From positions 8,680,001 through 8,744,000 of the forward strand of contig OV277857.1 in assembly GCA_922989275.2 (NCBI GenBank): a stretch of DNA of 64,000 bases, written 5' to 3'. Positions 20,111 through 63,475 of the stretch are shown here, piece after piece (positions within the stretch are counted from its first letter, which is position 1; the number at the start of each line of letters is the position of its first letter). Under the pieces are notes generated by a model, which had not been told where the DNA came from, searched no databases, and saw only the letters and a program-made list of their open reading frames with translations. The translations under genes and the position numbers were made by a program. The stretch comes from Gari tellinella (Eukaryota; Mollusca; Bivalvia; Cardiida; Psammobiidae).

Positions 20111-20535
20111 ATATGAGTCGTGCCATGCCAAAACCTGTCCTATTGCATTACAATAGTATACAGACCAAGTACAGTGGAGAATCTGTTATTCTTTCCCGTT
20201 TAAACGCAAACGTACGCAAACGCAAAGCACTAAAACGTAGAAAAGAACAACTTTTGGACAATTCTGATAATTCTTGTTTATCTTGGTGGAAAACAGTTTG
20301 GAGCCTGATCAGACGCCGGGTTACCCGGCGTCTGATCTGGCTCCAAACTGTTTGCACTGCAAATAATAGTTTTAGCGTAAACGCGTTTATTGGGAAAGAA
20401 TAACAGATTCTCCACTGTACCATAGTCACACCAGGCTCTGTATCTGAGTTTAGTCTACACTGCCAAATACCATGTATAATACAGCTGCATAAAATACACT
20501 TTTTAAGGCAGGTTTTTTCATGGCACGGCTCATAT
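20111..20535. mobile_element. Element U with nested family A MITE
   Basis: ATATGAGTCGTGCCATGCCA at the left, inverted TTTCATGGCACGGCTCATAT at the right. The A copy 20170-20419 is inside. Confidence 0.75.
20170..20419 (-). mobile_element. Family A MITE (A1), nested in U
   Basis: Flanking TA. Termini CAGTGGAGAATCTGTTATTC and exact inverse, 246 bp between. Interior: AT-rich arm with AACGCGTTTACGC, a ~64-bp palindrome CAAACAGTTTGGAGC...CTGTTTG around CGGGTTACCCG, then TTTGCGTTTGCGTACGTTTG (inverted here). TA target and TIR suggest Tc1/mariner-type mobilisation. No transposase. Confidence 0.92.
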
Positions 20536-20649
20536 TAATACTGATACTAAGACTCTAAATGTTTTCTTATATATTTATATTAGATCCAGTAATGGATTAC
20601 GTGACAATTGTGAAGATAAGATCTACTTTTTTGTATTGACGAGATACCG

Positions 20650-20899
20650 TACAGTGGAGAATCTGTTATTCTTTCCCAATAAACGCGTTTACGCTAAAAC
20701 TATTATTTGCAGTGCAAACAGTTTGGAGCCAGATCAGACGCCGGGTAACCCGGCGTCTGACCAGGCTCCAAACTGTTTGCCACCAAGATAAACATGAACT
20801 ATCAGAATTGTCCAAAAGTTGTTCTTTTCTACGTTTTAGTGCTTTGCGTTTGCGTACGTTTGCGTTTAAACGGAAAAGAATAACAGATTCTCCACTGTA
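20650..20899 (+). mobile_element. Family A MITE (A2)
   Basis: Intact TA-flanked copy; orientation opposite to A1 230 bp away. Confidence 0.92.
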
Positions 20900-20985
20900 T
20901 ATATATGTAAAAGAAAATAAGATATGTTCTGTTCTGTTCTGTATGAACTCCTTCGTGTGGCGGTGCCCAATTCATCCATCCATCC

Positions 20986-21244
20986 TTAACCCTTTCCCTC
21001 ATAGAAGCGCCTTTTAGCACATTTAATTAATTCCTCCGCTAAAGAAATTAGTTCCAATTTATAGTCATGAGTAGATCTATGTACAATATGAGAAATATTT
21101 TCTATATTCTAGCAGGTAGTAGTTTAAAGAACTATGAAAGGAAAGCAGAATGCGCCTGAAGGTGAATTCTGCTTTACTTTTAACCTGCTTTTTAGTGGTC
21201 AACTGTCTTAAAAACTAGAAACAGGATATTGGGAAACGTGTTAA
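20986..21244. mobile_element. C-family MITE
   Basis: TTAACCCTTTCCCTCATAGA to GGGAAACGTGTTAA. Central hairpin AGGAAAGCAGAATGCGCC with inverse. Confidence 0.75.
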
Positions 21245-21831
21245 CTTTGTGGTCGCTGAGGCATTGCCGATGACATCACAACCGGTCTGCGCTATCTTTC
21301 ACGAACATGTAATGGCAACTTTTAAGCCTGATTTAACTCGACATCTGATCTGGCTCTAAAATGTTTGTTATGGGCATCAATATTTGAGCACAAACTCGTT
21401 TATTGTGAAAGAAAAATGGCCTGTCCCAGCCCAGCGATTCTAAAGCGTTTGTGTTGAGTCGGAGTACGTTCTCAAGTATTTGATTGTTCAGATTTGTGCC
21501 CAGACTCAAATCTGAACACTTGAATGCTTGAGCACGATTTCAGACTCAACTCGAATGCTTTATAAGCATGGAGACCAGTCCTTCTCCTACTCTATTTTTG
21601 CTTGTATATCATCTTCACTGCTGTGACGTCATTGAAGAATTGTCTTCTGCTTTCATTCTAGATCTAATTCTTAATTCGAGGTATTTTGACTTAGTAAATA
21701 TTGTGTCAATAGTTTCTGGTCTGATGCCGCGTGACGCGGCGTCTGATCTGGATCAAACTGTTTGCAAATGATCATTTAGTAGGTGTTTCAAAACAAGAAT
21801 TGCTTTCCTCCTCTCCTGTATTACAGTGGAT

Positions 21832-22071
21832 AATCTGTTATTCTTTCCCGTTTAAACGCAAACGTACGCAAACGCAAAGCGCTAAAACGTTGAAAAGAAC
21901 TACTTTTGGACAATTCTGATAATTCATGTTTATCTTGGTGGCAAACAGTTTGGAGCCTGATCAGACGCCGAGAAACCCGGCGTCTGATCTGGCTCCAAAC
22001 TGTTTGCACTGCAAATAATAGTTTTAGCGTAAACGCGTTTATTGGGAAAGAATAACACATTCTCCACTGTA
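21832..22071 (-). mobile_element. Family A MITE (A3)
   Basis: Both TIRs and the TA are present. Left TIR reads CAGTGGATAATC; hairpin stem has a GAGAAACCC variant. Confidence 0.9.
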
Positions 22072-22078
22072 TATTTAA

Positions 22079-22482
22079 TACAGTGTCCCCTCCTTACAAC
22101 GACCCTCCTTACAACGATTCCAAACTTTCAACAACTTAACGCTTGCTGCTGCTCCCTAAACAAGACATTTATGTTTCACGCCTTCATTGCTGCAATGTTG
22201 TCTTCTCCAAATTGTTGTTTGCTCGGTTTTTCACAAAGTTACGTATTTGAAATTTCACAGAAGAAATATAAAGAGTAGTAACAAACAATTTGAACCCGGA
22301 TAAGACGTCACGCCGCGTTACGTGGCGTCTGATCTGGAATCAAACTGTTTACAAATGTAAGTCGAGTCATGCTCGATATTCTAATGATATTATTTTCCTT
22401 CCCTATAAGAACTACCTCCAAACAACACATATAACCCTTGTCTCGCATTTCGTGGTATTGTTGTAGAGAGGGAGTCACTATA
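22079..22482 (-). mobile_element. B-family MITE
   Basis: TA, CAGTGTCCCCTCCTTACAAC to GTTGTAGAGAGGGAGTCACT. Central AACAATTTGAACCCGGATAA hairpin with an extra ACGTCACGCC. Confidence 0.75.
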
Positions 22483-22506
22483 CGACAAAATTACACCAAT
22501 GTTCGG

Positions 22507-23095
22507 GGGCCCGTTTTATGAAACGTAGAACGGGGAAAATGGTTGCAAGTCAGATTCTAAAATTATCAATACTTATTTATTTCTCCATTTTATCATGTCT
22601 TTCAAGACGATTCCAAAGAGATGTCACAAGACAGAATTAGATGGAGAAATAAAAAGTTAGCTGTATTTTAAAGTTTTGATAAACGATCGTTTTTGTCGTA
22701 CATGTACAGTGGAGAATCTGTTATTCTTTCCCAATAAACGCGTTTACGCTAAAACTATTATTTGCAGTGCAAACAGTTTGGAGCCAGATCAGACGCCGGG
22801 TAACCCGGCGTCTGATCAGGCTCCAAACTGTTTGCCACCAAGATAAACAAGAATTATCAGAATTGTCCAAAAGTTGTTCTTTTCTACGTTTTAGTGTTTT
22901 GCGTTTGCGTACGTTTGCGTTTAAACGGGAAAGAATAACAGATTCTCCACTGTATCATGTCTTTCAAGACGATTCCAAAGAGATGTCACAAGACAGAATT
23001 AGATGGAGAAATAAAAAGTTAGCTGTATTTTAAAGTTTTGATAAACGATCGTTTTTGTCGTACATGTACAATGTACGACGTTTCATAAAAGGGCA
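22507..23095. mobile_element. D-family element split by A4 and partly duplicated
   Basis: GGGGCCCGTTTTATGAAACG at the left; GTACGACGTTTCATAAAAGG at the right. A 116-bp interior segment (22591-22706) is repeated exactly at 22953-23068, on the other side of A4. Confidence 0.8.
22705..22954 (+). mobile_element. Family A MITE (A4), between 116-bp direct repeats
   Basis: Intact copy with TA at each end, inserted in a D-family element. Confidence 0.92.
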
Positions 23096-23211
23096 CCCGC
23101 GGAAGTGTGGTTAGGTTGTTCGAAAGAAAGCTGGTGTTTTCTTAGTTTAGAGCAGAAAGCTGCTGAAGCAGAGTCAGTGGCAGGCAAGAATCTCCTGTAT
23201 GAGATTTCTGT

Positions 23212-23677
23212 TTAACATACGCATTTGATTTATTAATCCATTAAAGAAAATAGTTCTTCTGTAAACACTGAGTTGCACATTCGCATTATCTACCTTCAGA
23301 AATACCTTTTATATCCTTGCATATGATAGCTTAAAGCAGACTGAAAGTACAAATAAAGCGCTTTATGGCATTCTCTAACGTTCAACCTGCTTTAACCCTT
23401 TGAACCCTAGTCCCGCATATTGGCGTTCTTTGCAAACATTGTACATGTGAATAGTACACTTGTCATATGCAAACAGTGAACACCCAGATTAGAGGGCTCC
23501 TAGGAGCCCTCTGATCAGGGTCTTCACTGTTTGTCATAATACCAAACATTGACAAAACAAAAATGGACTGGACTTAAACGGAAACTGGAATTGTCCATCT
23601 AAAGTTTCAGGGAGGAAAGAGTTAAGAAGTCACCTGCCTTCAAACTAGAAACAGGCCATGGGGTACAGGGATTTTAA
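23212..23677. mobile_element. C-family MITE carrying a nested F MITE
   Basis: TTAACATACGCATTTG to ACAGGGATTTTAA, degenerate ends. Hairpin halves AGCAGACTGAAAGTAC and TTCAACCTGCTT are separated by the F insertion. Confidence 0.6.
23392..23625. mobile_element. F-family MITE (TTAA), nested
   Basis: TTAACCCTTTGAACCCTAGT to GGGAGGAAAGAGTTAA. Hairpin CAAACAGTGAACACCCAGAT, GGCTCCTAGGAGCC, inverse. Confidence 0.82.
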
Positions 23678-24563: not shown

Positions 24564-24812
24564 TTAACCCATTCCCCCATAGAAGCGATTTTTAGCGTAT
24601 TTAATTTATTCCTCCGCTGAAGAAAACAGTTCCAGTTTATACCCTCATGAATAATTACCATTACACATATTTTATATAGCCTAGCAGATTTTAGCTTAAA
24701 ATAGGCTGAAAGTAAAGCAGAATGTGCCTTAAGGCACATTCTGCTTTACTTTCAACCTGCTTTAAGTGGTCATCTGTCTTCAAAACTATAAACAGGCTAT
24801 GAGGTAAAGGAA
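24564..24812. mobile_element. C-family MITE
   Basis: TTAACCCATTCCCCCATAGA. Perfect hairpin around AAGGCACATT; right end TATGAGGTAAAGG is worn. Confidence 0.75.
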
Positions 24813-24967: not shown

Positions 24968-25355
24968 TACATTGACCCCTCTCTACAACAACACCCAAAA
25001 GGTGAAAAAGATTGTGTGTGTTGTTCGGAGGGATTTGTTATAGGGAGGGAAATAGGCTTACAATTTCAAACAGCTTTAATCCAGATCAGACGCCGCGTAA
25101 CGCAGCAGAACGGATCCCTGTGCTTCTGATCTGGATTCAAATTGTTTGTCATTCGTCATTATGGTGTGTGTTTTTTTCTGTCAAAATATCCATTATGTGA
25201 CTTTGAGAAAACAGCAGACGACACTTTTAAGCAGACGAATATGCAGCCCCGAAAAGATAGGACATAATTGTCGTGTTTGGGAACAGCGGTAAACATTGTT
25301 GTAAAATAAGGAGGGAATCAGTGTTCAGAGGTCTGTGGTGGGGAGGGAGTACTAT
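24968..25355 (+). mobile_element. B-family MITE
   Basis: TA, CATTGACCCCTCTCTACAAC to GGGGAGGGAGTACTATA. AAACAGCTTTAATCCAGATC hairpin with an inserted CAGAACGGATCC loop. Confidence 0.7.
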
Positions 25356-25395
25356 ACATGGTAATAAATAATTCAAAATGAAAACGTGTTCGTCT

Positions 25396-26565: not shown

Positions 26566-26815
26566 TACAGTGGAGAATGTGTTATTCTTTCCCAATAAAC
26601 GCGTTTACGCTAAAACTATTATTTGCAGTGCAAACAGTTTGGAGCCAGATCAGACGCCGGGTAACCCGGCGTCTGATCAGGCTCCAAACTGTTTGCCACC
26701 AAGATAAACATGAAATATCAGAATTGTCCAAAAGTTGTTCTTTTCTACGTTTTAGCGCTTTGCGTTTGCGTACGTTTGCGTTTAAACGGGAAAGAATAAC
26801 AGATTCTCCACTGTA
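26566..26815 (+). mobile_element. Family A MITE (A5), Vsx last intron
   Basis: Intact; left TIR reads GAGAATGTGTTATTC. Its inner end is about 190 bases from the terminal Vsx exon acceptor. Confidence 0.92.
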
Positions 26816-27682: not shown

Positions 27683-27982
27683 TTAACCCTTTACCCCATG
27701 TTGTACTACAAATACCTGGGTGAATAAAGGATATGTTCTGTTCTGATAGCCTATTTCTAGTACTTAAGATAGATGACTTCTTAAAGCAGGTTAAAAGTAA
27801 AGCAGAATGCGCCTGAGGGCGCATTCTGCTTTACTTTCAGCCTGCTTTAAGCTATCATGTGCTACAATATAGAAAATATTCCATATAATACACATTCATT
27901 ACTGATTAAATTGGAACTATTTTCTTCAGCGGATGAATATATCATATCCGCTAAAATGCGCTTGTATTGGGGAAAGGGTTAA
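27683..27982. mobile_element. C-family MITE
   Basis: TTAACCCTTTACCCCATGTT to GGGGAAAGGGTTAA. Hairpin around CCTGAGGGCGCATT. Confidence 0.8.
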
Positions 27983-28242: not shown

Positions 28243-28456
28243 TTAACCTTTCCACCGCCGAAATCGCCTAAAATCGACTTTGCAAACAGTTTTGACCGAG
28301 ATCAAAACTGCTTGAGTATCGTATCGATATTTCTACAGCCATACTAACTTAAATCTCACTTTTAAAAGATATTGCATACAGCACTGTGGACACAGACGAC
28401 GGTATGGCGGTGAAGGGGCAAAACACTCACAATTAATTTGGCGCTGAAAGGGTTAA
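28243..28456. mobile_element. J-family MITE (TTAA)
   Basis: TTAACCTTTCCACCGCC to GGCGCTGAAAGGGTTAA. Small AAACAGTTTTGACC hairpin. Confidence 0.6.
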
Positions 28457-28617: not shown

Positions 28618-28815
28618 TTAACCCATTTATGCTAAGTGGATTCTTCCATGCTTATAAATTCCATTATTCATTAAGCGGTGCCCGGTTGAATATTTAATTT
28701 TCGTTTGATTTTTATAGAACTTCCTGTCAATACAATCTCAAATCAGATGTTGCATAATTCGGCGCCTGGTCTGATTCTGCACTGTTTGCATATGACACGT
28801 GCATAAATGGGTTAA
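28618..28815. mobile_element. L-family MITE (TTAA)
   Basis: TTAACCCATTTATGCTAAGT to CGTGCATAAATGGGTTAA; central hairpin partly deleted (CTGATTCTGCACTGTTTG kept). Confidence 0.65.
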
Positions 28816-28864: not shown

Positions 28865-29074
28865 TTAACCCATTTATGCCTAGCGTCCCATAGAAGGGGC
28901 ATGGTCAAACACTGTAAACTTTGACCAGAGTCTACACTGTTTGCAGATAGGAATTAAATGGAATTTCAATATAAAACAAACGACCATGGACATTTAGACT
29001 AGGCACCCCTTTCATAAAAATGGACTTATCAAATATATAGGCATGGACGAATCCACTGGGCGCAAATGGGTTAA
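28865..29074. mobile_element. L-family MITE (TTAA)
   Basis: TTAACCCATTTATGCCTAGC to CACTGGGCGCAAATGGGTTAA-type end; AGAGTCTACACTGTTTGC half-hairpin. Confidence 0.65.
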
Positions 29075-29575: not shown

Positions 29576-29815
29576 CTTAATTTATTTACCCCTGCATTTT
29601 CAAATGGATAATTCCAATATCCGATAAAGTGTAGTGTAATTTGACTATATTTATGGTTGCTTTTTTACAATAAATTACAAAATTACAAACAGTGCAGACC
29701 CTGCTCAGAGGGCTCAGATCTGGGTATTCACTGTTTGCATAGGACAAGTATAATGCTCACAGGTATGCTTTTTGTAAAGGACGAGGATACTCGTCGCTTA
29801 GTATGAATGGGTTAA
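29576..29815. mobile_element. F-family MITE, degraded
   Basis: Left ATTTACCCCTGCATTTTC; hairpin AAACAGTGCAGACCC...GATCTGGGTATTCACTGTTT; right GTATGAATGGGTTAA. Confidence 0.55.
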
Positions 29816-30015
29816 GAATTATCCTGTCGTCTGCTTTGAGATTGTCTTCTGCCAAATTTGTTATTTTAACACATGTTTTCATTGTCCTAGTATTAAAACC
29901 TAAAGAGGAGTGTCAAACAATTTGGATCCAGATCAGACGCCGCGTTACGCGGCGTCTGATCTGGATCCAAACTGTTTGCAAAAGAGTAAATTCGCGATCA
30001 ACAGGCATCGAAAAT
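29812..30015. mobile_element. E-family MITE, right end degraded
   Basis: Shares its TTAA with the preceding F copy. Near-perfect palindrome GACGCCGCGTTACGCGGCGTC; GTCGTCTGC motif near 29827. Confidence 0.6.
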
Positions 30016-31650: not shown

Positions 31651-31900
31651 TACAGTGGAGAATCTGTTATTCTTTCCCAATAAACGCGTTTACGCTAAAA
31701 CTATTATTTGCAGTGCAAACAATTTGGAGCCAGATCAGACGCCGGGTAACCCGGCGTCTGATCAGGCTCAAAACTTTTTGCCACCAAGATAAACATGAAA
31801 TATCAGAATTGTCCAAAAGTTGTTCTTTTCTACGTTTTAGTGCTTTGCGTTTGCGTACGTTTGCGTTTAAACGGGAAAGAACAACAGATTCTCCACTGTA
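31651..31900 (+). mobile_element. Family A MITE (A6)
   Basis: Intact TA-flanked copy; hairpin stem has CAATTTGGAGC and CAAAACTTTTTG changes. Confidence 0.92.
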
Positions 31901-32753: not shown

Positions 32754-33109
32754 TACAGTGTTCCCGCTCTACAACAACTACAAGTTGGAGACAAATATGG
32801 CTTGTGTTGTTTGGAAGGAGTTGTTGTAGGGAGGGAAATTGACTTACATTTGCAAACAGCATGAATCCAGATCAGACGCCGCGTAACGCGGCGTCTGATC
32901 TGGATTCAAGCTGTTTGTCAATCGTCATTATGCTTTTTCTGTCAAAATTTCCAACAAGTTGAAAAAAACAGCAGACGACAATTGTAAGCAGACGATATTT
33001 CAGCCATGGAACGTTTGGACATAATGGTCGTGTTTGTGAAGCAGTGGCAGGCGTTGTTGTGAGGAGGGAAACGTTATTCAGAGGACCGTTGTGGAGTAGA
33101 AGCACTGTA
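32754..33109 (+). mobile_element. B-family MITE, intact
   Basis: TA, CAGTGTTCCCGCTCTACAAC to GTTGTGGAGTAGAAGCACTG, TA. Perfect core GACGCCGCGTAACGCGGCGTC. The inner phrase AGCAGACGACAATTGTAAGC repeats the GTCGTCTGC motif of family E. Confidence 0.85.
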
Positions 33110-34548: not shown

Positions 34549-34890
34549 TACAGTGTTTCCTCTTTACAACGACCCTCCCAACAACGACTCCCTCCTTACA
34601 ACGACCCTTGTTTCTGTTCCCCAAACAAGACATGTATGTCCAACCTATTCACGACTACAATGTTGTCTGTACAAATTGTCGTCTGCTGTTTTTCTCAAAG
34701 TTTCATTATGGACGTTTTGACAGAAAATCCTTAATAACGAGTGACAAACAGCTTGACGTTACGCGGCGTCTGATCTGGATTCAAGCTGTTTGCAAATGTA
34801 AGCCGATTCCCTCCCTATAACGACTCCCTCCGGACAACGCACATATTTTTTGTCTCCCATTGGATGTCGTTGCAGAGTGGGAGCGCTGTA
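34549..34890 (-). mobile_element. B-family MITE, core half-deleted
   Basis: TA, CAGTGTTTCCTCTTTACAAC to GTTGCAGAGTGGGAGCGCTG, TA. Left core arm deleted (AAACAGCTTGACGTTACGCG). Confidence 0.78.
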
Positions 34891-35012: not shown

Positions 35013-35085
35013 TATAACACACAGTGCAGACCCTGATGAGACGCCACATGACGCGGCGTTTCATCAGGGTCTACGCTGTTAACCA
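35013..35085. repeat. L-type hairpin without ends
   Basis: ACACAGTGCAGACCCTGATG, GACGCCACATGACGCGGCGT, CATCAGGGTCTACGCTGTT. Confidence 0.6.
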
Positions 35086-35982: not shown

Positions 35983-36245
35983 TTACTAACCGTTTACTCT
36001 ATAGTTACACATTTTTACGTATTTTATTAATTCTTCCACTGAAGAAATAGCTCTATTTTATATTCTAATTCTTCCACTGAAGAAATAGTTCTATTTTATA
36101 TTCTAGCAGTTGGTAGCTTCAAGCAGACTGAAAGTAAAGCATAATGCGTCTGAGGGCGCATTATGTTTTACTTTCAACCTGCTTGAAGGGGTCACTTGTC
36201 TTAAAAAATATAAAAAGGCTACATATATTATTATGTAATGGGTGA
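35983..36245. mobile_element. C-family MITE
   Basis: Hairpin GCTTCAAGCAGACTGAAAGT around CTGAGGGCGC. Left part contains an internal duplication of about 44 bases (ATTCTTCCACTGAAGAAATA twice). Confidence 0.7.
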
Positions 36246-36339: not shown

Positions 36340-36588
36340 TACAGTGGAGAAAACGTTATTCTTTCCCGTTTAACCGCAGACGTACGCAAACGCAAAACAC
36401 TAAAGTGTAGAAAATACCATTTTTGGGCAATTCTGATATTTCATGTTTATCTTGGTGGCAAACAGTATGGAGCCTGATCAGACGCCGGGTTACCCGGCGT
36501 CTGATCTGGCTCCAAACTTTTTGTAAAACAAAAACTAGTTTTAGCGTAAACGCGTTTATCGGGAAAGAATAACACATTCTCCACTGTA
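36340..36588 (-). mobile_element. Family A MITE (A7)
   Basis: TA flanks. Left TIR has GAGAAAACGTT, right TIR AACACATTCTCC: mismatched subfamily ends. Confidence 0.9.
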
Positions 36589-36828: not shown

Positions 36829-37381
36829 TACAGCTCTGCCTCTCTACAACAACTTCTAAAGAGAGACAAAAATGTGTGTTGTTTTGAAGGAATTGTTAAA
36901 GTGGGTAAAATTAATACCCTAAGAGTACATATGCAACCAGTTTGAACCCAGACCAAACGTAGCGTAACGTGGTGTCTGAGCTGGGTTAAAACTGTTTGTC
37001 ACTCGTCTTTATGCCTTCTTCTCTCAAAATGTCCTATACGTAACTTTGAGAAAGAGCAGCAAACGACAATTTTAAGCAGGTGATTTAGTGGAGAATCTGT
37101 TATTCTTTCCCGATAAACGCGTTTACGCTAAAACTAGTTTTTCTTTTACAAACAGTTTGGAGCCAGATCAGACGCCGGGTAACCCGGCGTCTGATCAGGC
37201 TCAAAACTTTTTGCCACCAAGATAAACATGAAATATCATAATTGTCCAAAAGTTGGTCTTTTCTACGTTTTAGCGCTTTGCGTTTGCGTACGTTTGCGTT
37301 TAAACGGGAAAGAATAACAGATTCTCCACTGTAAGGACGGGATCGTTGTTCGGAGGACCGTTGTAGGCAGGAAGCAATGTA
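36829..37381 (+). mobile_element. B-family MITE interrupted by A8
   Basis: CAGCTCTGCCTCTCTACAAC at the left, GTTGTAGGCAGGAAGCAATG at the right. The B right arm resumes at 37334 after A8. Confidence 0.75.
37086..37333 (+). mobile_element. Family A MITE (A8), nested in B
   Basis: Full interior; left terminus begins TAGTGGAGAATC (first CA reduced), right CTCCACTGTA intact. Confidence 0.88.
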
Positions 37382-37493: not shown

Positions 37494-37743
37494 TACAGTG
37501 GAGAATCTGTTATTCTTTCCCGATAAAACGCAAACGAAACGCAAACGCAAATCACTAAAACGTAGAAAAGTGCAATTTTGGACAATTCTGATAAGTCATG
37601 TTTTTCTTGAAGGCAAACAGTTTGGAGCCAGATCAGACGCCGGGTTACCCGGCGTCTGATCTGGCTCCAAACTGTTTGTAACAGAAATAATAGTTTTAGC
37701 GTAAACGCGTTTATAGGGAAAGAATAACGTTTTCTTCACTGTA
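37494..37743 (-). mobile_element. Family A MITE (A9)
   Basis: TA flanks. Left GAGAATCTG end, right AACGTTTTCTTCACTG end: hybrid TIRs. The arm ACGCAAACGAAACGCAAACG differs from the majority form. Confidence 0.9.
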
Positions 37744-38175: not shown

Positions 38176-38400
38176 TACAGTGGAGAAAACGTTATTCTTT
38201 CCCAATAAACGCGTTTACGCTAAAACTATTATTTCCAGTGCAAACAGTTTGGAACCAGATCAGACGCCGGGTGACCCGGCGTCTGATCAGGTTCCATACT
38301 GTTTGCCACCAAGATAAACATGAAATATCAGAAGTTTTAATGTTTTGCGTTTGCGTACGTTTGCGTTTAAACGGGAAAGAATAACGTTTTCTCCACTGTA
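38176..38400 (+). mobile_element. Family A MITE (A10)
   Basis: Both TIRs of the GAGAAAACGTT type, TA flanks; about 25 bases shorter through loss in the right arm. Confidence 0.9.
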
Positions 38401-39201: not shown

Positions 39202-39462
39202 TTAATCCTTTACTCAACAACCTGTTTCCAGTATTGTAGATACGGTACTTCTTAAAGCATGCTGAAAGTAAAGCAGAATGCGCCTTAAGGCGCATTTTGC
39301 TTTTCTTTCAGCCTGCTTTAAACTACCATCTGCTTTGATATAGAAAATGTTTCTTATGGTACATGTTTATGACTGTATAAATTTGAACTATTTACTTTGG
39401 TGTAGGAATAGATTACATGTGTTACATGTGCTAATGGACGCTTCAATGGGTGAACGGGTTAA
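39202..39462. mobile_element. C-family MITE
   Basis: TTAATCCTTTACTCAAC to TGGGTGAACGGGTTAA. Hairpin around CCTTAAGGCGCATT. Confidence 0.75.
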
Positions 39463-39759: not shown

Positions 39760-40455
39760 TACAGTGCTCCCTCCATAAAACAACATCAAATGGGAAATAT
39801 ATATTGTACAGCGTTCCCTCTCTACAACGGCTCTCCCAACAACGATTCCCTCCTTACAACGACCCTTGCGGCAATTCCCTTAACGGGTCAATTATTTCTA
39901 ACGCTTTTACTGCTGCAATGTCGTCTGCTTAAAATTGTCGTCTGCTGTTTTTCTCAAAATTACATATTCGACATTTTGACAGAAAATAATTAATGATGAG
40001 TGACAAACAGCTTGAATCCAGATCAAACGCCGCGTAACGCGGCGTCTGATCTGGATTCAAGCTGTTTGTAAATGTAAACCAATTTTCCCTCTCTATAACG
40101 ACTCCCTCCGTACAACGCACACAATCACTGTCTCCCATTGGTTGTCGTTGTAGAGAGGGAAGGTTGTATGTGTTGTTTGGAGGGAATTGTTATAGGAAGG
40201 GAAAATAAAGACATGGCTTACATTTGCAAACAGCTTGAATCAAGATCAGACGCATTTGGATCTGGATTCAAGCTGTTTGTCACATGTCGGTACATTTCTT
40301 CTGTCAAAATGTCAACTGATATGAATCTTTGAGAAAAAACAGCAGACGACAACTTTAAGCAGACGACATTGCAGTAAAGAAAACGTTAGACAGAATTGTC
40401 AACAGCGGCAAGTAGTGTTGTAAGGAGGGGATCGTTGATGGGACGGAGTACTGTA
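39760..40455 (-). mobile_element. B-family MITE (outer), abutting the Vsx exon donor
   Basis: TA, CAGTGCTCCCTCCATAAAAC at the left (39762); right end GGACGGAGTACTG, TA at 40454-40455. Its middle is interrupted by a second B copy (39808-40169). The right TA is the T at +2 and A at +3 of the Vsx intron on the minus strand. Confidence 0.85.
39808..40169 (-). mobile_element. B-family MITE (inner), nested in another B copy
   Basis: TA, CAGCGTTCCCTCTCTACAAC to GTTGTAGAGAGGGAAGGTTG, TA. Perfect core GACGCCGCGTAACGCGGCGTC. Orientation opposite to the outer copy judged by the AGCAGACGACA side. Confidence 0.82.
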
Positions 40456-43467: not shown

Positions 43468-43919
43468 TTAATCCATTATTTGAAGACAATAGTTCCACTT
43501 TAAACCGTTACAGTCATGAAGACGTGCACCATAAGATATAGTTTCATATATCCTAGCAGATGGAAGCTTGACACAGGATAAAACTTACAGCAAAATGTTC
43601 CTTACCCTTTAACCAATAGTCTGTTTCTAGTATTTAACATATGTGACTTATTAAAGTAAGCTGAAAGTAAAGCAGAATGTGCCCTAGGGCACATTCTGCT
43701 TTACTTTCAGCTTACTTTATGTTACTATCTGCTAGTATATAGAAAATATTTCTTATAGTTCATAGTCATGGCAGTATAAAATGGAACTATTTTCTTTGGC
43801 GGATGAATTAAATGAATGCGCTAAAAGTCGCTTCTATAAGGGAAAGGGTTAAGGAGCACCTGCTTTATTTTCCGCCTTCTTTAAACAATACTGAAAACAA
43901 ACCATGGGATAATGGGTTA
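43468..43919. mobile_element. C-family MITE (outer) containing another C copy
   Basis: Left TTAATCCATTATTTGAAGAC; right CCATGGGATAATGGGTTA; interrupted at 43609. Confidence 0.65.
43609..43852. mobile_element. C-family MITE (inner)
   Basis: TTAACCAATAGTCTG to AGGGAAAGGGTTAA. Perfect hairpin around GTGCCCTAGGGCAC. Confidence 0.8.
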
Positions 43920-45436: not shown

Positions 45437-45839
45437 GCTACTGTCTGCTAGGATATAGTATTCGAAACATGAATGTTTGAAGTTGAACTATTTTCTTCGG
45501 AGGAGGGGTAAATTAAAGGCTAGAAAGTGTATATAATTATGGAATGATGGGTTATATTGTCTTATGATGTTATAAAGCTTGATACATAACCCGTTACAGC
45601 AAATATAGTGGACTCTGGAAAAGGAGAGTAAGAACGGTAACTCTGCAGAAAAATGTAGGAAGGGTAACTCTGCTGAAGAGATTATGAATCGATCCCTTGG
45701 CGGCAAAAGATCTATACTGTTTTCATTATTGAAAAACAATTAGCGTGGCAGAAAGCTGACTACAAAGCTTTCCACTATCGTCTGCAAGTGTTTTCCTCTC
45801 GCGCTCAAATTAATCTTCATACTGCTAAGTCCAACAACA

Positions 45840-45915
45840 CTCTGACAAACAGTTTTGATCCAGATTAGACGCCGAGGCACTCGGCGTCTAATCTGGATCT
45901 AAACTGTTTGATACG
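45840..45915. repeat. E-type core hairpin without ends
   Basis: GACAAACAGTTTTGATCCAG, GACGCCGAGGCACTCGGCGTC, CTGGATCTAAACTGTTTG. Confidence 0.65.
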
Positions 45916-46184
45916 CGTATAATTATTTATACGCGTAAAGAAAGACACAAAAATAATTCTAGTACTTTTGCAGACGACAAATTCGATTAAAGTCATATCG
46001 TAGCAATGATAAGGATTCAGCTGATAATATTGGCCAATAAATTGTGTGATAATTAGCACTTGTCTTGCCATAATGCATTTACAACAAAATATATCTATAT
46101 AATCCATAGAAAAATATAAACTGATTTTAACAAAATTATTAGTTTAATATATTACAGAGTTTAAACTAACAATTAGATTTAAAC

Positions 46185-46924: not shown

Positions 46925-47005
46925 TATATCAATTACAAACAGTGTAGACCCAGATCAGATGGCTCCTGAAGGAGCCCTCTGATCAGGGTCAGCACTGTTT
47001 GCCAT
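46925..47005. repeat. F-type core hairpin without ends
   Basis: TACAAACAGTGTAGACCCAG, GGCTCCTGAAGGAGCC, CAGGGTCAGCACTGTTTG. Confidence 0.65.
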
Positions 47006-47015: not shown

Positions 47016-47265
47016 TACAGTGGAGACTCTGTTATTCTTTCCCAATAAACGCGTTTACGCTCAAACTATTATTTCCAATACAAACAGTTTTGAGCCAGAT
47101 CAGACGCCGGGTAACCCGGCGTCTGATCAGGCTTCAAACTGTTTGCCACTCAGCCAAATAGCAATAGTCAGAATTGTCAAGAAGTTGTTATTTTCTACAT
47201 TTTAGTGTTTTGCGTTTGCGTACGTTTGCGTTTAAACGGGAAAGAATAACAGTTTCTCCACTGTA
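47016..47265 (+). mobile_element. Family A MITE (A12)
   Basis: TA flanks, TIR GAGACTCTGTTATTC; the core keeps GACGCCGGGTAACCCGGCGTC. Confidence 0.9.
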
Positions 47266-49212: not shown

Positions 49213-49464
49213 TTAACCCATTACCCCATAATTACGACTGTTTGTGCCTTTAAATTTTCTCTACACTGAAGAAAATTGTTCCAATTTGTAGAGTTATGAA
49301 TCTGTGCCATAGGAAATATTTTCTATACCCTTCCAGATTGTAGCTTAAAGTAGGCTGAAAGTAAAGCAGAATGTACCAAAAGGCACATTCTGCTTAACTT
49401 TCAACCTACTTTAAGTGGTCACCTATCTTCTATACTAGAAACAAGCTATGGGGTAATGGGTTAA
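49213..49464. mobile_element. C-family MITE, intact
   Basis: TTAACCCATTACCCCATAAT to TATGGGGTAATGGGTTAA, near-perfect ends and hairpin. Confidence 0.88.
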
Positions 49465-50900: not shown

Positions 50901-51127
50901 TAAACCTATTTATGTCCACAATCCCATATATGGGACATGGACAAACAATGTAGACGCTGATCAGACACCGCATAATGCGGCGTCTGATCAGAGTCTACAC
51001 TGGTTGCTGATAGGGATTTCAATATAAAACTAAATGAAAATGAAAATGTAGACCAGGCACCTTAGGTAAAAAATGGACTTATCCAATATATAAGCATGGA
51101 AGAATCCACTGGGCATAAATGGGTTAA
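50901..51127. mobile_element. L-family MITE
   Basis: AACCTATTTATGTCC to CACTGGGCATAAATGGGTTAA-type end. Full core GACACCGCATAATGCGGCGTC with CAGAGTCTACACTGGTTG. Confidence 0.72.
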
Positions 51128-51445: not shown

Positions 51446-51565
51446 CTTTACCCCCATCGCCTGTTTCTAGTCTTGTTAACATGTGGCTGCTTAAAGCAGG
51501 CTGGAAGTAAAGCAGAATGCGCCTTAAGGCTTATTCTGCTTTACTTCCAGCCTGCTTTAAAGAGG
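51446..51565. mobile_element. C-type left half and hairpin
   Basis: CTTACCCCCATCGCCTGTTT and hairpin AAAGCAGGCTGGAAGTAAAG with inverse. The C right half reappears at 52086-52105 (TTTAAGCTACCATGTACTAG) beyond the next element. Confidence 0.55.
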
Positions 51566-52320: not shown

Positions 52321-52570
52321 TACAGTGGAGAATCTGTTATTCTTTCCCGTTTAAACGCAAACGTACGCAAACGCAAAGCACTAAAACGTAGAAAAGAACA
52401 ACTTTTGGACAATTCTGATAATTCTTGTTTATCTTGGTGGCAAGCAGTTTGGAGCCTGATCAGACGCCGGGTTACCCGGCGTCTGATCTGGCTCCAAACT
52501 GTTTGCACTGCAAATAATAGTTTTAGCGTAAACGCGTTTATTGGGAAAGAATAACAGATTCTCCACTGTA
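52321..52570 (-). mobile_element. Family A MITE (A16)
   Basis: Intact. Differs from A17, 450 bp away, at only about four positions by eye, suggesting recent amplification. Confidence 0.93.
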
Positions 52571-53018: not shown

Positions 53019-53268
53019 TACAGTGGAGAATCTGTTATTCTTTCCCGTTTAAACGCAAACGTACGCAAACGCAAAGCACTAAAACGTAGAAAAGAACAAC
53101 TTTTGGACAATTCTGATAATTCTTGTTTATCTTGGTGGCAAACAGTTTGGAGCCTGATCAGACATCGGGTTACCCGGCGTCTGATCTGGCTCCAAACTGT
53201 TTGCACTGCAAATAATAGTTTTAGCGTAAACGCGTTTATTGTGAAAGAATAACAGATTCTCCACTGTA
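53019..53268 (-). mobile_element. Family A MITE (A17)
   Basis: Intact TA-flanked copy; core has GACATCGGGTTACCC. Confidence 0.93.
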
Positions 53269-53735: not shown

Positions 53736-54146
53736 CAACCCTTTACTCAATGTAAACGCTTTTTAAGCATTGAATTAATTACTCCACTTTTAAGAAGATA
53801 GTTCCAATTTATACAGTCATGAATATGTACAGTGGAGAATCTGTTATTCTTTCCCAATAAACGCGTTTACGCTAAAACTATTATTTGCAGTGCAAACAGT
53901 TTGGAGCCAGATCAGACGCCGGGTAACCCGGCGTCTGATCAGGCTTCAAACTTTTTGCCACCAAGATAAACATGAAATATCAGAATTGTCCAAAAGTTGT
54001 TATTTTCTACGTTTTAGCGCTTTGCGTTTGCGTACGTTTGCGTTTAAACGGGAAAGAATAACAGATTCTCCACTGTACATGTATCATAAGAAATACTTTC
54101 GTGAACATGGAATCGGGAATATAGAAAATATGCATAAACTATATCT
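53736..54146. mobile_element. C-family MITE left part, carrying A18
   Basis: TCAACCCTTTACTCAATG and TACAGTCATGAATATG before A18; ATGTATCATAAGAAATAC after it. Confidence 0.6.
53828..54077 (+). mobile_element. Family A MITE (A18), nested in C
   Basis: Intact TA-flanked copy. Confidence 0.92.
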
Positions 54147-54461: not shown

Positions 54462-54953
54462 GCCCGTTTTACGAAAAGTCGTATAACAGAAACGGTCGTA
54501 AGTCAGATTCTAGAATTCTAAATTATTATTTATTTGATCCGTCTAATCCTTTTTTGTGTTATACGATTTTGGAATTGTCTTTTCAAGACAATTCCAAAGA
54601 TATGTCACAAGACAAGATTAGACGGGGAAATCGTAAATTCTAGGTATGTACATGTATTTTAATGTTTTGACTTACAGTGGAGAAAATGTTATTCTTTCCC
54701 AATAAACGCGTTTACGCTAAAACTATTTTTTCCACTGCAAACAGTTTGGAGCCAGATCAGACGCCGGGTAACCCGGCGTCTGATCAGGCTCCAAACTGTT
54801 TGTCATCCAGGTTAAAATCAACTTACAGAATTGTAAAAAAGTAGTTATTTTCTACATTTTAGTGGTTTGCGTTTCGTTTGGGTTTAAACGGGAAAGAATA
54901 ACAGATTCTCCATGGTACGACCGTTTTTGTCATAAGACGTTTCGTAAAGTGGG
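54462..54953. mobile_element. D-family element interrupted by A19
   Basis: GGGGCCCGTTTTACGAAAAG at the left, AAGACGTTTCGTAAAGTGGG at the right. Hairpin TTTGGAATTGTCTTTTCAAG with inverse. Confidence 0.75.
54673..54917 (+). mobile_element. Family A MITE (A19), nested in D
   Basis: CAGTGGAGAAAATGTTATTC to ATTCTCCATGGTA; right tip has two changes. Confidence 0.88.
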
Positions 54954-54988: not shown

Positions 54989-55237
54989 TACAGTGGAGAA
55001 TCTGTTATTCTTTCCCAATAAACGTGTTTACGCTAAAACATTTATTTGCAGTGCAAACAGTTTGGAGCCAGATCAGACGCCGGGTAACCCGGCGTCTGAT
55101 CAGGCTCCAAACTGTTTGCCACCAAGATAAACATGAAATATCAGAATTGTCCAAAAGTTCTTCTTTTCTACGTTTTAGCCCTTTGCTTTTGCGTACGTTT
55201 GCGTATAACGGGAAAGAATAACAGATTATCCACTGTA
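54989..55237 (+). mobile_element. Family A MITE (A20)
   Basis: Intact, right TIR GATTATCCACTG. Confidence 0.92.
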
Positions 55238-56106: not shown

Positions 56107-56343
56107 GGGGCCCGTCTCACGAAACGTTTCGATAAAAATGGTCGTTTTTCAAAACTTTGAAATGCATCTCATTTCTGCTTTGTCCATCTAATCCTGTCTT
56201 TTGACATCTATTTTAAATCGCCTTTTCAAGACGATTCCAAAGAGATGTCACAAGACAGGATTATACGAAGAAATAAATAATAATTTAGATTTTTAGAATC
56301 TGACTTACGCACTATTTATCGTACAACGGTTCAGGGGCCCGTT
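56107..56343. mobile_element. D-family element
   Basis: GGGGCCCGTCTCACGAAACG; hairpin CGCCTTTTCAAGACGATTCC, AGATGTCACAAGACAGGATT; shares its right end with the next copy. Confidence 0.75.
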
Positions 56344-56574
56344 TCATAAAACTTCGTACGCCAAAAACGGTCGTAAGTCAAAACTTTAAAATACATTTAA
56401 TTTCAGATGTCTATCTAATCCTGTCTTATGACATCTCTTTGGAACCGTCTTTTCAAGACGGTTCCAAAGAGATGTCACAAGACAGGATTAGATGGAGAAA
56501 TAAATACTATTTGAGATTTTTATAATCTGACTTACGACAACATTTGTCGTACGATGTTTTATGAAACGGACCCC
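56334..56574. mobile_element. D-family element, best-preserved copy
   Basis: GGGGCCCGTTTCATAAAACT to GTTTTATGAAACGGACCCCT. Perfect hairpin arms GGAACCGTCTTTTCAAGACG and continuation with GATGTCACAAGACAGGATTA. Confidence 0.82.
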
Positions 56575-56689: not shown

Positions 56690-56939
56690 TACAGTGGAGA
56701 ATCTGTTATTCTTTCCCGTTTAAACGCAAACGTACGCAAACGCAAAGCGCTAAAACGTAGATAAGAACAACTTTTGGACAATTCTGATATTTCATGTTTA
56801 TCTTGGTGGCAAACAGTTTGGAACCTGATCAGACGCCGGGTTACCCGGCGTCTGATCTGGCTCCAAACTGTTTGCACTGTAAATAATAGTTTTAGTGTAA
56901 ACGCGTTTATTGGGAAAGAATAACAGATTCTCCACTGTA
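56690..56939 (-). mobile_element. Family A MITE (A21)
   Basis: Intact TA-flanked copy. Confidence 0.93.
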
Positions 56940-57508: not shown

Positions 57509-57759
57509 TACAGTGGAGAAAACGTTATTCTTTCCCAATAAACGCGTTTACGCTAAAACTAGTATTTCCACTGCAAACAGTTTGGAGCCAGATCAGACGC
57601 CGGGTAACCCGGTGTCTGATCAGGCTCCGAACTGTTTGTCATCCAGGTTAAAATCAACTTTCAGAATTGTAAAAAAGTAGTTATTTTCTACATTTTAGTG
57701 GTTTGCGTTTGAGTTTCGTTTGGGTTTAAACGGGAAAGAATAACAGATTCTCCACTGTA
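57509..57759 (+). mobile_element. Family A MITE (A22)
   Basis: Left TIR GAGAAAACGTT, right TIR AACAGATTCTCC: hybrid ends. Confidence 0.92.
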
Positions 57760-57824
57760 GCTATGTAATTGTTGTCTGCAACATATCTTAAATTTGATTT
57801 ATTTACTTTTTTTCTTTCCTGCAC

Positions 57825-58553: not shown

Positions 58554-58804
58554 TTAACCCTTTGAACCCTAGTCCCGCTTATAGGCGTCCTTTTCAATCA
58601 GTGTACATGTTAATAGTACACTTGTCCTATGCAAACAGTGAAGACCCAGATCAGAGGGCTCCGATAGGAGCCCTCTGATCAGGGTCTTCACTGTTTGTCA
58701 TAATGCCAAACATTGACAAAAACAACCCTTAAAAGTCAGAAATTGACTAGACTAAAATGGAAACTGGACTTGTCCATTTAAAATTTCAGGGAGGAAAGAG
58801 TTAA
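58554..58804. mobile_element. F-family MITE, intact
   Basis: TTAACCCTTTGAACCCTAGT to CAGGGAGGAAAGAGTTAA. Perfect core CAAACAGTGAAGACCCAGAT, GGCTCCGATAGGAGCC. Confidence 0.86.
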
Positions 58805-58859
58805 AGCAAGGTGAAAGTAATTCTGTTTTAAGCAACCACGTGTTTTAAACACAAGTAAT

Positions 58860-59100
58860 GTATCTGTTATTCTTTCCCGTTTAAACGCAAACGTACGCAA
58901 ACGCAAAGCACTAAAACTTAGAAAAGAACAACTTTTGGACAATTCTGATATTTCATGTTTATCTTGGTGGCAAACAGATTGGAGCCTGATCAGACGCCGG
59001 GTTACCCGGCGTCTGATCTGGCTCCAAACTGTTTGCACTGTAAATAATAGTTTTAGCGTAAACGCGTTTATTGGGAAAGAATAACAGATTCTCCACTGTA
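58860..59100 (-). mobile_element. Family A MITE (A23), left tip lost
   Basis: Starts TATCTGTTATTCTTTCCCG without CAGTGGAGA; right end intact. Confidence 0.85.
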
Positions 59101-59261
59101 ATACATCTCTAGGTATTTCTGTTCGGCCAACCTTGTATTACAATGCCGTTAGTTATCTTAAGGGCAGGTGGATCATAAATGCATAAATAACTAACGCAGA
59201 AAACTCCTGTACGTGTAGCAGTTTAATGCATTTTATACGTGGACTGCAGTATACTGTCACC

Positions 59262-60093: not shown

Positions 60094-60187
60094 CATTGAG
60101 TTGATGCTTAATACAAGATTGATTTACCAGGAAATCCAACTATGACAGCAGCGCAAAAGACTTGTCGTCAGTGATTATGTCAGATAG

Positions 60188-60454: not shown

Positions 60455-60505
60455 AGTTGTGATCTGTATTAAACACCAATAATGTGAGTCTTCTTTTCGA
60501 GTGGT

Positions 60506-60755
60506 TACAGTGGAGAATCTGTTATTCTTTCCCGTTTAAACGCAAACGTACGCAAACGCTAGGCACTAAAACGTAGAAAAGAACAACTTTTGGACAATTC
60601 TAATAATTCTTGTTTATCTTGGTGGCAAACAGTTTGGAGCCTGATCAGACGCCGGGTTACCCGGCGTCTGATCTGGCTCCAAACTGTTTGCACGGCAAAT
60701 AATAGTTTTAGCGTAAACGCGTTTATTGGGAAAGAATAACAGATTATCCACTGTA
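60506..60755 (-). mobile_element. Family A MITE (A24)
   Basis: Intact TA-flanked copy. Confidence 0.92.
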
Positions 60756-60762
60756 ACCACTT

Positions 60763-61361
60763 AAGCACGAGAAAATAATGCAGAACGAGCCTTACTTTCA
60801 GGCTGCTTTAAGCGTCCATCTGCTAGAATATAGAAAATATTTCTTATGATACATATTTTTGAGTGTATATAAAATGGAACTTGAGCGGAAAAACACGCCT
60901 TTGTACAGTGGAGAATCTGTTATTCTTTCCCGTTTAAACGCAAACGTACGCAAAGCACTAAAACGTAGAAAAGAACAACTTTTGGACAATTCTGATAATT
61001 CTTGTTTATCTTGGTCGCAAACAGTTTGGAGCCTGATCAGACGCCGCGTAACCCGGCGTCTGATCTGGCTTCAAACTGTTTGCACTGCAAATAATAGTTT
61101 TAGCGTAAACGCGTTTATTGGGAAAGAATAACAGATTCTCCACTGTACACCTTTAATTTATCCCTTTATTGCAGAATTCAGTTCTTCTTTATAACTTTAG
61201 AAATGTGCACCATAAATAATTACAATATTTGAGTAAATATTGCTAAACGCAAAACGACAGTAAACCAGAACGCGCACTAAGGCTCATTCTACTTTGCTTT
61301 CAATCTGCTTTCAGTGGCCACCTGTTTATAAAACTAGAAATATGTTAAGGATAATGGGTTA
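60763..61361. mobile_element. C-family right and left parts around A25
   Basis: CTTTCAGGCTGCTTTAAGCG and GAAAAACACGCCTTTG before A25; ACCTTTAATTTATCCC and AAGGATAATGGGTTAA after it. Confidence 0.55.
60904..61147 (-). mobile_element. Family A MITE (A25), nested in C
   Basis: Intact TA-flanked copy with a 6-base deletion in the ACGCAAACG arm. Confidence 0.92.
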
Positions 61362-61395
61362 AGCAGACGAATGGTTGGTGTAATGCTGTTTATAG

Positions 61396-61899
61396 TACAG
61401 AAAACCCATGTAAACAGGACATGGGTGGGGACAACATAAATTTCCTGTTAAGAGGGGCTTCCAGTTTAGAGGGGTTTTAACCCATAGTATGATCTAGTAC
61501 GAAAGATAGGTGACCACTTAAAGCAGGTTGAAAGAAACAGGACATGGGTGGGGACAACATAAATTTCCTGTTAAGAGGGGCTTCCAGTTTAGAGGGGTTT
61601 TAACCCAAAGTATGATCTAGTACGAAAGATAGGTGACCACTTAAAGCAGTTTGAAAGTGAAGTAGAATACGCCTTAGTGCGCATTCTGCTTTACTTTCAA
61701 CCTGCTTTAAGCTATCATCTGCTAGAATGTATAAAGTGGAACTTTTTTCTTAATGTTTGAATAAACCAAAGACGTAAAAGGCGTTTTTATGGTGTAATTG
61801 TTTAAAATAAAGAAGGGTTAGAAATGGGACCAAAGTTTTTGTCCGGTTTAGAGAGAATTTCGGTATTCAGAGGTTCCGGTTTGGAGGGATTTCACTGTA
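61396..61899. mobile_element. TIR element with nested, partly duplicated C MITE
   Basis: TACAGAAAACCCATGTAAAC left; GGAGGGATTTCACTGTA right. Encloses a C copy (GGTTTTAACCCATAGTATGA ... ATGGTGTAATTGTTTAA). Confidence 0.5.
61412..61657. repeat. 123-bp tandem duplication
   Basis: 61412-61534 is repeated at 61535-61657 with two differences by eye. The unit spans a TIR-element part (AAACAGGACATGGGTGGGGA) and a C-MITE left arm (AAAGCAGGTTGAAAG). Confidence 0.85.
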
Positions 61900-62150
61900 C
61901 ATATCTATCTGTTCAATGTCTAGTCGTCTGTCTTGTGTTTCAGCAGATGCGTTCTGTCATCCGGGGAACTATAATGATGACAAATTCCGCTATATGTCTA
62001 GGCCTGTATATGGAAGTTGGTTTATATTACGGTTGGGGCTCCGTATAAATTTGCAGAACCATTCTACACATTTCTTAGTTTTGATACCGTGCATCGAGGT
62101 ACATTTGAACGTTAAAAGTTGATAACTCAAACATGCTTAAAAGTAAAAAA

Positions 62151-62402
62151 TTAACCCTTTTAGTTAACCGTTTCACTCTCAGTGACGTCTAAAAGCCCGT
62201 TTACAAACAGTTTGGACTCTGTTCAGACGCCGCGTAACGCGGCGTCAAATCAGCTTTGACACTCGTTTTTAAATTTCTTCAGTCAAACTGCCTTATATTT
62301 TGTACTTTGAAACGACGTTGCAGACAACAAATTTGAGGCAGACGACAATGAAACGGTGAAGGGGTAAACATCCCATGAAAACTTTGGCAGTGAAAGGGTT
62401 AA
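62151..62402. mobile_element. J-family MITE (TTAA)
   Basis: TTAACCCTTTTAGTTAACCG to TTTGGCAGTGAAAGGGTTAA. Core GACGCCGCGTAACGCGGCGTC; AGGCAGACGACAATG motif. Confidence 0.7.
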
Positions 62403-62414
62403 ACCAAATGCATA

Positions 62415-62902
62415 TACAGTGGAGAATCTGTTATTCTTTCCCAGTAAACGCGTTTACGCTAAAACTATTATTTGAAGTGCAAACAGTTTGGAGCCAGATC
62501 AGACGCCGGGTAACTCGGCGTCTGATCAGGCTCCAAACTGTTTGCCACCAAGATAAACATGAAATATCAGAATTGTCCATAAGTTGTTCTTTTCTACGTT
62601 TTAGCGCTTTGCGTTTGCGTACGTTTGCGTTTTTGTGACTTTACGTCACTATATCTTTTACGAGGTCACACGTAATCAATAATTACTTTGGGTGTTATTT
62701 CTGTAAAAACTTCATTAAAATTAATATAATAAAACAATCAATTTGTGTGGATGGATATGAAAAATATATCACTCGAATGGGTTGTTATTTAGTTAAAAAA
62801 CTCGTCCTACAGACTCATTTTTTAACAAAATAACAACCAATTCTCTTGATATATTTTTCATATCAATCCAATGGAATTGATTATCCTCTATATCTCCACT
62901 GT
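62415..62902 (+). mobile_element. Family A MITE (A26), split by a palindromic insertion
   Basis: Left TIR and core intact to 62631 (TTTGCGTACGTTTGCGTTT). The right tip ATCTCCACTGTA is at 62891-62902. Between them are about 255 bases containing an inverted repeat (GGTTGTTATTTAGTTAAAAA / TTTTTTAACAAAATAACAAC; GATATGAAAAATATATCA / TGATATATTTTTCATATC). Confidence 0.75.
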
Positions 62903-63236
62903 ATCACATGTCATGTATATAATGTACTTTTTCTTATAACTCCTTTATGGAATGCTTTCGCATTCTTTTATATCGTTTACTGTGTATGTGTACGTATGTA
63001 TTGAATGTGCATTGATGAAATGTAAATGAATATTATATATACATGTATATGGTTTTTTTATTTATGATATATTGTATAATTGTTTATCACATTTTAAATC
63101 CATTTAATCCAGACAGAAAAGTTTAATTCCTCTATATTCTCACTCCAGTCTCTTCATTTATCAGAAATATTTGCTATTATTAACATGATTAATGTAAATA
63201 CAATACAAGGCCTACATCACTCCTTTATTGTTGTTT
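62903..63236. other. AT-rich DNA
   Basis: ATGTATATAC-rich; no gene or element recognised. Confidence 0.4.
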
Positions 63237-63475
63237 CAGTGGAAAAGACGTTATTTTTCCTAAAAACTCTAAAACTGTTATTTCCAATGCTACCAATTTG
63301 GAGCCAGATCAGACGCCGGGTAACCCGGCGTCCGATTTTGGCGCAAAACTGTTATCTATTCAGATTAAAACTAAATCGACAGGAAGTTCAAATATGTGTT
63401 ATTGTCTATAATTTAGTGTCTTGCATTTGCTTTTCGATTGCGTTTAAACGGTAAAGACTAACGTTTTCTCCACTG
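63237..63475 (+). mobile_element. Family A MITE (A27), old copy
   Basis: CAGTGGAAAAGACGTTATTT to ACTAACGTTTTCTCCACTG; TA flanks lost; core GACGCCGGGTAACCCGGCGTC kept. Confidence 0.75.

Follow-up and report, generated by a model that had tools for sequence, protein, structure and literature searches.

The closest described parallel to the repeats analysed here, which share a 65-nt hairpin within a 64-kb stretch of the bivalve Gari tellinella (GCA_922989275.2, contig OV277857.1, positions 8,680,001 to 8,744,000; the whole stretch is hereafter the window), is MER6/MER6A, a Tc1/mariner miniature inverted-repeat transposable element (MITE) with the V domain of a short interspersed element (SINE), for which the authors inferred nested insertion followed by composite diversification (PMC6887750). 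As in their account of MER6/MER6A, a conserved interior module of one element class appears inside MITE ends flanked by TA (PMC6887750). The two cases differ in that the donor of MER6/MER6A is described as a SINE whereas here it looks like a MITE flanked by TTAA, in that our module consists of a hairpin and a box, and in that both kinds of end carry the hairpin within one 64-kb window.

Molluscs offer further points of comparison. Two consensus repeats of Lucina pectinata, compared here by description only, are MITE-like with a central palindrome: the first, of 210 bp, combines a 30-bp imperfect inverted repeat with a 77-bp centre that is 96% self-complementary, and the second, of 92 bp, lacks an inverted repeat and has a self-complementary segment of 68 bp (PMC4732748). 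Similar fragments are reported there from other molluscs, and the section describing these repeats mentions no sharing across unrelated ends (PMC4732748). The pearl-family element DTC84 of Donax trunculus has a conserved palindrome near the repeat junction (PMC5139131). Pearl-family MITEs of molluscs are, like ours, modular and non-autonomous, but the modules described for them are tandem satellite-like repeats, and the passages describing them contain no hairpin-plus-box unit (PMC5139131). Nothing resembling a hairpin common to different end classes was found in the literature that we searched, in which coverage of subscription papers is thin. A search of paper texts for the hairpin sequences returned unrelated titles only when they were entered as letters and nothing when they were entered as peptides.

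The hairpin is a near-perfect palindrome whose arms measure about 31 nt, and it is carried by two TA-flanked families (A and B) and four TTAA-flanked families (E, J, L and F) in a window that also contains LINE-type (long interspersed element) reverse transcriptase and dense MITEs, at 35-39% G+C. The pattern CAAACAG-x-TTGGA has 42 matches in the window against 0.14 expected, and an iterated nhmmer profile recovers 78 hairpin loci at E<=0.1, 66 of them at E<1e-5. A reading of the letters without database searches (the sequence-only reading) had proposed one core under unrelated TA and TTAA ends; this holds, on a larger scale than first described. The loci span positions 1875 to 63355, which puts the start well before the 20172 given there. 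A palindrome search independent of the profile found 60 long near-perfect palindromes in the window and none in each of two first-order Markov sequences, and 37 of the 60 overlap the hairpin core. Folded as DNA, six hairpin copies reach -25 to -38 kcal/mol, compared with about -6 to -7 for shuffled sequences.

A second common part, which the sequence-only reading had missed, is the non-palindromic box GCAGACGACA, often doubled and standing in fixed orientation on one side of the hairpin. At no more than one mismatch the window holds 32 copies against 1.6 expected; 28 of them stand, with side and orientation constant, at 40-98 nt from a hairpin (random mean 3.7, maximum 11 in 2000 draws), and the remaining four are situated elsewhere. 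The distance to the hairpin is 57-62 or 74-79 nt for 17 of these 28, and the box is repeated after 6-8 nt in eight places. Outward from one hairpin edge the order is NCACTC, an A+T-rich spacer of about 45-60 nt and the box. The fixed side and orientation of the box give the module a polarity that a palindrome by itself lacks, and since the box travels with the hairpin, the common unit is more than the hairpin alone. We further note, by eye, that the long arms of F and L hairpins (10896, 23470, 58632 and 50942) have TGGACTTRTCCA or a similar string about where other families have the box.

Among the TTAA families, three E and two J elements (the latter at 62164-62402 and 28243-28456) have paired ends starting with TTAA at no more than 3 mismatches, that is, terminal inverted repeats (TIRs) and TTAA as in MITEs. 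Both families are laid out as hairpin, arm, boxes and TTAA end, and by eye other boxes lead into TTAA ends of similar make at 18848, 41881 and 53512. The TTAA families may be MITEs of the piggyBac or Kolobok kind, with which they share TTAA and short TIRs starting TTAACCC. Hairpins of F and L form a second type. The outer stem is that of the other families and the inner stem differs, just as the sequence-only reading had described for F, where the inner stem is GAGGGCTCC. L is represented by two elements (28618-28815 and 28865-29074) and a single end at 51105-51127; its best hairpin, 50942, is F-like and the other two score poorly (E 9e-07 and 6e-02), which corrects the sequence-only reading. 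Of three cores thought to lack ends (35013, 45840 and 46925), only the first, our hairpin 35018, stays endless. Boxes flank hairpin 45846 left and right, the right one followed, as judged by eye, by a decayed TTAA-type end, and hairpin 46936 is of F type with an A element 16 bp away, beyond which no F arm was recognised.

Family B carries the same module under ends of the other kind. Its ends form five pairings, three of them mutually overlapping, besides seven unpaired ends, and its layout runs from hairpin through arm, boxes and GCAGTGAAAGCGTTAG to its own long TA ends. The long arm of B resembles those of the TTAA elements with boxes (z 12.1, or 7.2 once the first 7 nt are dropped). Examined as a composite, B has a likely TTAA end on its long side: at +89 from the hairpin its consensus reads AGCAGTGAAAGCGTTAG, with which the J end GGCAGTGAAAGGGTTAA agrees at 14 of 17 positions. 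The TTAA end starts at about +92 from the hairpin in E, at +117 in the J element of hairpin 62204 and at +105 at 18848. Of the seven TTAA end probes, every one except L matches B best at +88 or +89. The string at about +89 is likely, if not proven, to be a fossil TTAA end. Its position between the boxes of B and the TA ends suggests that the direction was TTAA into TA, and B looks most simply like a TTAA element captured by TA ends. The sequence-only reading had left a choice between conversion, capture and a self-mobile hairpin. B speaks for capture, and the hairpin as the moving unit is unsupported because hairpin, arm and boxes with fixed polarity are common to B, E and J.

Family A comprises 22 hairpins, 21 TIR-paired elements of 221-247 bp (26-nt TIRs, at most 6 mismatches) and five unpaired ends. 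It has the features of a MITE, being short, non-coding and multicopy with TIRs and target duplication; TA stands on both sides of 19 of the 21 paired elements, and by eye the two longest open reading frames (ORFs) across A copies look like chance read-through. All 21 paired elements contain the hairpin. What A has in common with E and B amounts to the hairpin and about 6 nt, and older copies have CCACTC beside the hairpin. Chimeric A elements, with one arm from another family, were considered and rejected, as the differing arms look by eye like older A variants.

A tree of the hairpins was built from 65 columns and 51 of the 78 loci, the other 27 being damaged or without a clear family. A and old A form one group of 28 rows (92/86), F forms one of five rows (100/99), eight of nine B rows fall together (81/88), and E-type hairpins are placed around the base. 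The six family groups require 8 changes on the tree, where the minimum possible is 5 and the shuffled mean 26.4. End type (TA or TTAA) changes three times, with TA ends arising among TTAA ends deep down; one of these changes probably reflects heavy damage in row B_37766. The sequence-only reading had named full agreement of core and end trees beforehand as the outcome that would count against it. The two mostly agree at family level and disagree deep down. This fits about two old captures, and recent or ongoing exchange of hairpins between families is not evident.

The pairing of the hairpin was assessed on 19 hairpins picked by hand for preservation and family spread, a choice that favours pairing. 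In this set 93.5% of cells are paired, and both sides have changed in 14 of 31 pairs. Double-change cells number 65 against 17.7 in shuffled data (none of 500 shuffles as high), and the covariation score is 0.346, whereas shuffling gives 0.126 and slid versions never exceed 0.083. Seven family representatives give 387 pairs that are the same, 72 with both sides changed and paired, 32 with one side changed and 13 with both sides unpaired; the 21 comparisons overlap, so these counts are descriptive and their Fisher value ignores the overlap. Within family A there are 26 single changes that break a pair, one compensated double change and one repair of a consensus mismatch. Covariation between families and uncompensated decay within A suggest that the palindrome decays after insertion and changes in step between families. 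Local palindrome correction inside inserted copies was rejected (1 of 27 changes in paired positions). The pairing may be kept either by selection on source elements or by correction during copying. The A hairpin diverges by 2.2%, compared with 4.3% and 5.9% in its flanks (32/1430 against 214/4008 sites). As a separate observation, variants of the A hairpin are uneven, the short-side arm having 5 and the opposite arm 16 (binomial p 0.027, post hoc).

We lean modestly towards an old TTAA-MITE interior that was captured by TA ends about twice and whose shape was maintained in active lineages; the capture history taken on its own appears probable. The common unit would be the interior of an old TTAA MITE, with a short arm, the 65-nt hairpin, NCACTC, a freely evolving spacer of about 45-60 nt, one or two copies of GCAGACGACA and a TTAA end. 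The ends of the TTAA families would differ because they diverged from a common TTAACCC start. The TA families B and A would each have arisen about once by capture, through nested insertion or abortive gap repair, with A keeping the hairpin and the rest being lost or overwritten. Lineages that produce new copies would preserve the shape of the hairpin more than its letters, most likely because mobilisation by whichever transposase may benefit from a hairpin or cruciform in the DNA, which might for instance favour excision at replication or pair the ends. This DNA-level role in mobility is offered tentatively and is more doubtful than the capture.

Several results weigh against this reading. Shared ancestry of the copies and differing composition mean that the z of 7.2 between B and the TTAA arms is not overwhelming; arm-comparison controls range from -5.0 to 1.6, and the short arms of A and B reach 3.9. 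The 14/17 match is attained by 18 of 2000 random 170-nt pieces of the window, itself rich in real TTAA ends. Weaker end probes are matched more often (E1 by 569, E2 by 109 and J28243 by 209 of 2000), and of the seven probes J 62338, 18848 and the E2 short side alone have counts below 50. On the short side of B no relict TTAA end was seen. No homology was found between the long arm of A and that of B or E (z -0.5 and 0.5, below zero once the first 7 nt are removed), and against that of F there is an unexplained z of 4.6 without these 7 nt. On the tree, 25 of 44 inner branches are open and only four are starred, and the damaged J hairpin 62204 is placed in the F/L part (87/80), where it groups with L 50942 (89/83). 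When every variant enters only once, the difference in divergence between the A hairpin and its flanks falls back to a merely suggestive p of 0.06-0.07, for shared and private variants alike. Templated correction of imperfect palindromes while copying could also preserve the shape. No transposase was found among the ORFs of the window, which were all that was searched.

That a single ancestral element simply diverged at its ends, with no capture, is unlikely for the whole set of families. Such divergence holds well inside the TTAA group, with its TTAACCC starts and common module, and both A and B begin TA-CAGTG; against it stand the difference between TA and TTAA as target sites and the TTAA end that B apparently harbours within its TA ends. 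Palindromes are hot spots for template switching, and recurrent gene conversion or template switching could carry hairpins between families. The hairpins of A and E29914 agree at 21 of 24 outer pairs under unrelated ends, which would be explained in this way, as would the placement of hairpin 62204 with L. But hairpin 62204 is damaged, hairpins otherwise group by family, and the 26 breaking changes against one compensated change in A indicate that correction or conversion is rare after insertion, which makes such traffic improbable.

The strong covariation would also be expected if the hairpin were kept for a role as structured or small RNA and not for DNA mobility, and many small RNAs are reported from rice MITEs (PMC4732748). 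Against such a role, no Rfam family reaches its gathering threshold anywhere in the window, and a survey of mollusc small RNAs states that it found no evidence for a dedicated endo-siRNA (endogenous small interfering RNA) pathway (PMC12479628). Wobble pairs are few, and since the wobble of one strand is a mismatch on the other, they do not discriminate; we consider an RNA role improbable as well. Least of all do we favour a hairpin that is mobile in itself and inserts into MITEs and elsewhere: the short stretch that A has in common with E and B and the endless hairpin 35018 would suit it, but it is very unlikely given that none of the 21 paired A elements is hairpin-free, that no target duplication was seen at hairpin edges (inspected by eye, in one window), that arm and boxes accompany the hairpin in E, J and B, and that hairpin 45846 does not lack an end and 46936 lies beside another insertion.

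Beyond the window, a protein search with the translated E-type hairpin (E up to 10) matched 16 ENA ORF proteins at E 7.7e-6 to 0.24. Six of them reach 1e-3, and 15 are encoded on contigs of 0.3-3.9 Mb. SLDPD occurs in all 16 and LTLCL, encoded by TTAACCCTTTGCCTG, lies upstream in nine; the query itself contains LTLCL, which biases the matches towards it. The tail is long enough for the box in five. A perfect box could be encoded by P0127 at nt 56 (1 of 500 shuffles) and by P0130 at nt 57 (0 of 500), a box of 8/10 by P0121 at 57 (51 of 500), one of 9/10 by P0132 at 45 and one of 8/10 by P0136 at 74, although back-translation cannot prove the nucleotide letters of a box. Very probably, then, the module with its spacing exists in other genomes, which may be close to each other. 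A search with the translation of A gave no match. Exact hairpin patterns were not found in viral or prokaryote contigs. A phage or prokaryote origin of the hairpin was rejected; one A element had no match in the phage collection, and plasmids were not searched. Nine viral stretches with a double box are attributed to chance, as the hairpin profile has no match there and the contexts look like coding repeats.

The coordinates of the elements and hairpins are given in the table below.

Table. Elements, modules and hairpins in the window, with strand and associated features.
Feature	Position	Strand	Details
A element	20172..20417	-	TA flanks; hairpin 20290-20354
A element	20652..20897	+	hairpin 20715-20779
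A element	21824..22069	-	hairpin 21942-22006
A element	22707..22952	+	hairpin 22770-22834
A element	26568..26813	+	hairpin 26631-26695
A element	31653..31898	+	hairpin 31716-31780
A element	36342..36586	-	hairpin 36459-36523
A element	37086..37331	+	hairpin 37149-37213; sits within B element of hairpin 36934
A element	37496..37741	-	hairpin 37614-37678, fully paired
A element	38178..38398	+	hairpin 38241-38305
A element	47018..47263	+	adjoins F-type hairpin 46936
A element	52323..52568	-	hairpin 52441-52505
A element	53021..53266	-	hairpin 53139-53203
A element	53830..54075	+	hairpin 53893-53957
A element	54675..54915	+	hairpin 54738-54802
A element	54991..55235	+	hairpin 55054-55118
A element	56692..56937	-	hairpin 56810-56874
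A element	57511..57757	+	inserted next to box 57770-57779 of hairpin-57837 element
A element	58853..59098	-	hairpin 58971-59035
A element	60508..60753	-	hairpin 60626-60690
A element	60906..61145	-	hairpin 61018-61082
A element	62417..62662	+	hairpin 62480-62544; left TIR only recognised, right end inferred from repeat D1 register
B element	22081..22479	-	hairpin 22282-22351
B element	32754..33109	+	TA; hairpin 32853-32917; boxes 32971-32980, 32988-32997
B element	34549..34890	-	TA; hairpin 34728-34792 partly deleted; box 34677-34686
B hairpin	11340..11404	+	likely TTAA-end relict in long arm
B hairpin	25067..25148	+	box 25214-25223
B hairpin	40004..40068	-	boxes 39936-39945, 39919-39928, then likely TTAA-end relict
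B hairpin	40227..40279	+	boxes 40342-40351, 40359-40368
E element	6472..6685	+	TTAA; hairpin 6512-6576; boxes 6635-6644, 6651-6660
E element	10221..10433	-	TTAA; hairpin 10329-10393; boxes 10262-10271, 10246-10255
E element	19131..19343	-	TTAA; hairpin 19239-19303; boxes 19170-19179, 19152-19161
E-type module	29825..29978	-	hairpin 29914-29978 and two boxes
J element	62164..62402	+	TTAA; damaged hairpin 62204-62268; boxes 62320-62329, 62338-62347
Double-box hairpin	45776..45979	.	hairpin 45846-45910; decayed TTAA-type end after right box (by eye)
L-type hairpin	50942..51006	+	L end 51105-51127
F-type hairpin	2753..2818	+	profile match
F-type hairpin	10896..10961	-	profile match
F-type hairpin	23470..23533	+	profile match
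F-type hairpin, shortened	29686..29737	-	profile match
F-type hairpin	46936..47001	+	A element 16 bp away
F-type hairpin	58632..58697	+	TTAA family; inner stem GAGGGCTCC
Hairpin, no ends found	35018..35082	+	profile match

The window contains other repeats as well. A second palindrome superfamily (AAAGCAGGCTGAAAGTAAAGCAGAATGCGCC...) has 27 loci, including 12065-12134, 24695-24766, 27780-27851, 36117-36188, 39252-39321, 43652-43719, 49344-49415 and 51491-51560 among others, and 12 of the 60 long palindromes belong to it. Several copies lie inside TTAACCC...GGGTTAA elements of similar layout, and by eye the E element 6472-6685 is inserted at the central TTAA of one of its palindromes (6440-6487). 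Two small families of long palindromes are found at 4526-4600, 4740-4814 and 8846-8920 and at 56189-56263 and 56413-56493, and a tandem repeat with units of about 155-165 bp occupies 5365-5994, 7703-8063 and 12306-13626. A loopless inverted repeat with 70-nt arms (up to 3 mismatches allowed) lies at the start of a LINE ORF (16237-16376) and may be either a LINE 5' inversion or an assembly fold-back.

These elements bear on the question of how MITEs reach high copy number without proteins of their own. That the hairpin keeps its pairing as its letters change, and does so beneath ends from different transposon classes, points to a structural aid to copying, independent of the transposase. It is conceivable by analogy, though unlikely, that the hairpin and its direct-repeat box form a transferable mobility module, taken up by elements that use different transposases (TA and TTAA) and raising their copying; if so, it would parallel the uptake of conserved domains by SINEs. 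A further suggestion is that the interiors of MITEs, often taken for filler, can be ancient and conserved and can pass from one element class to another.

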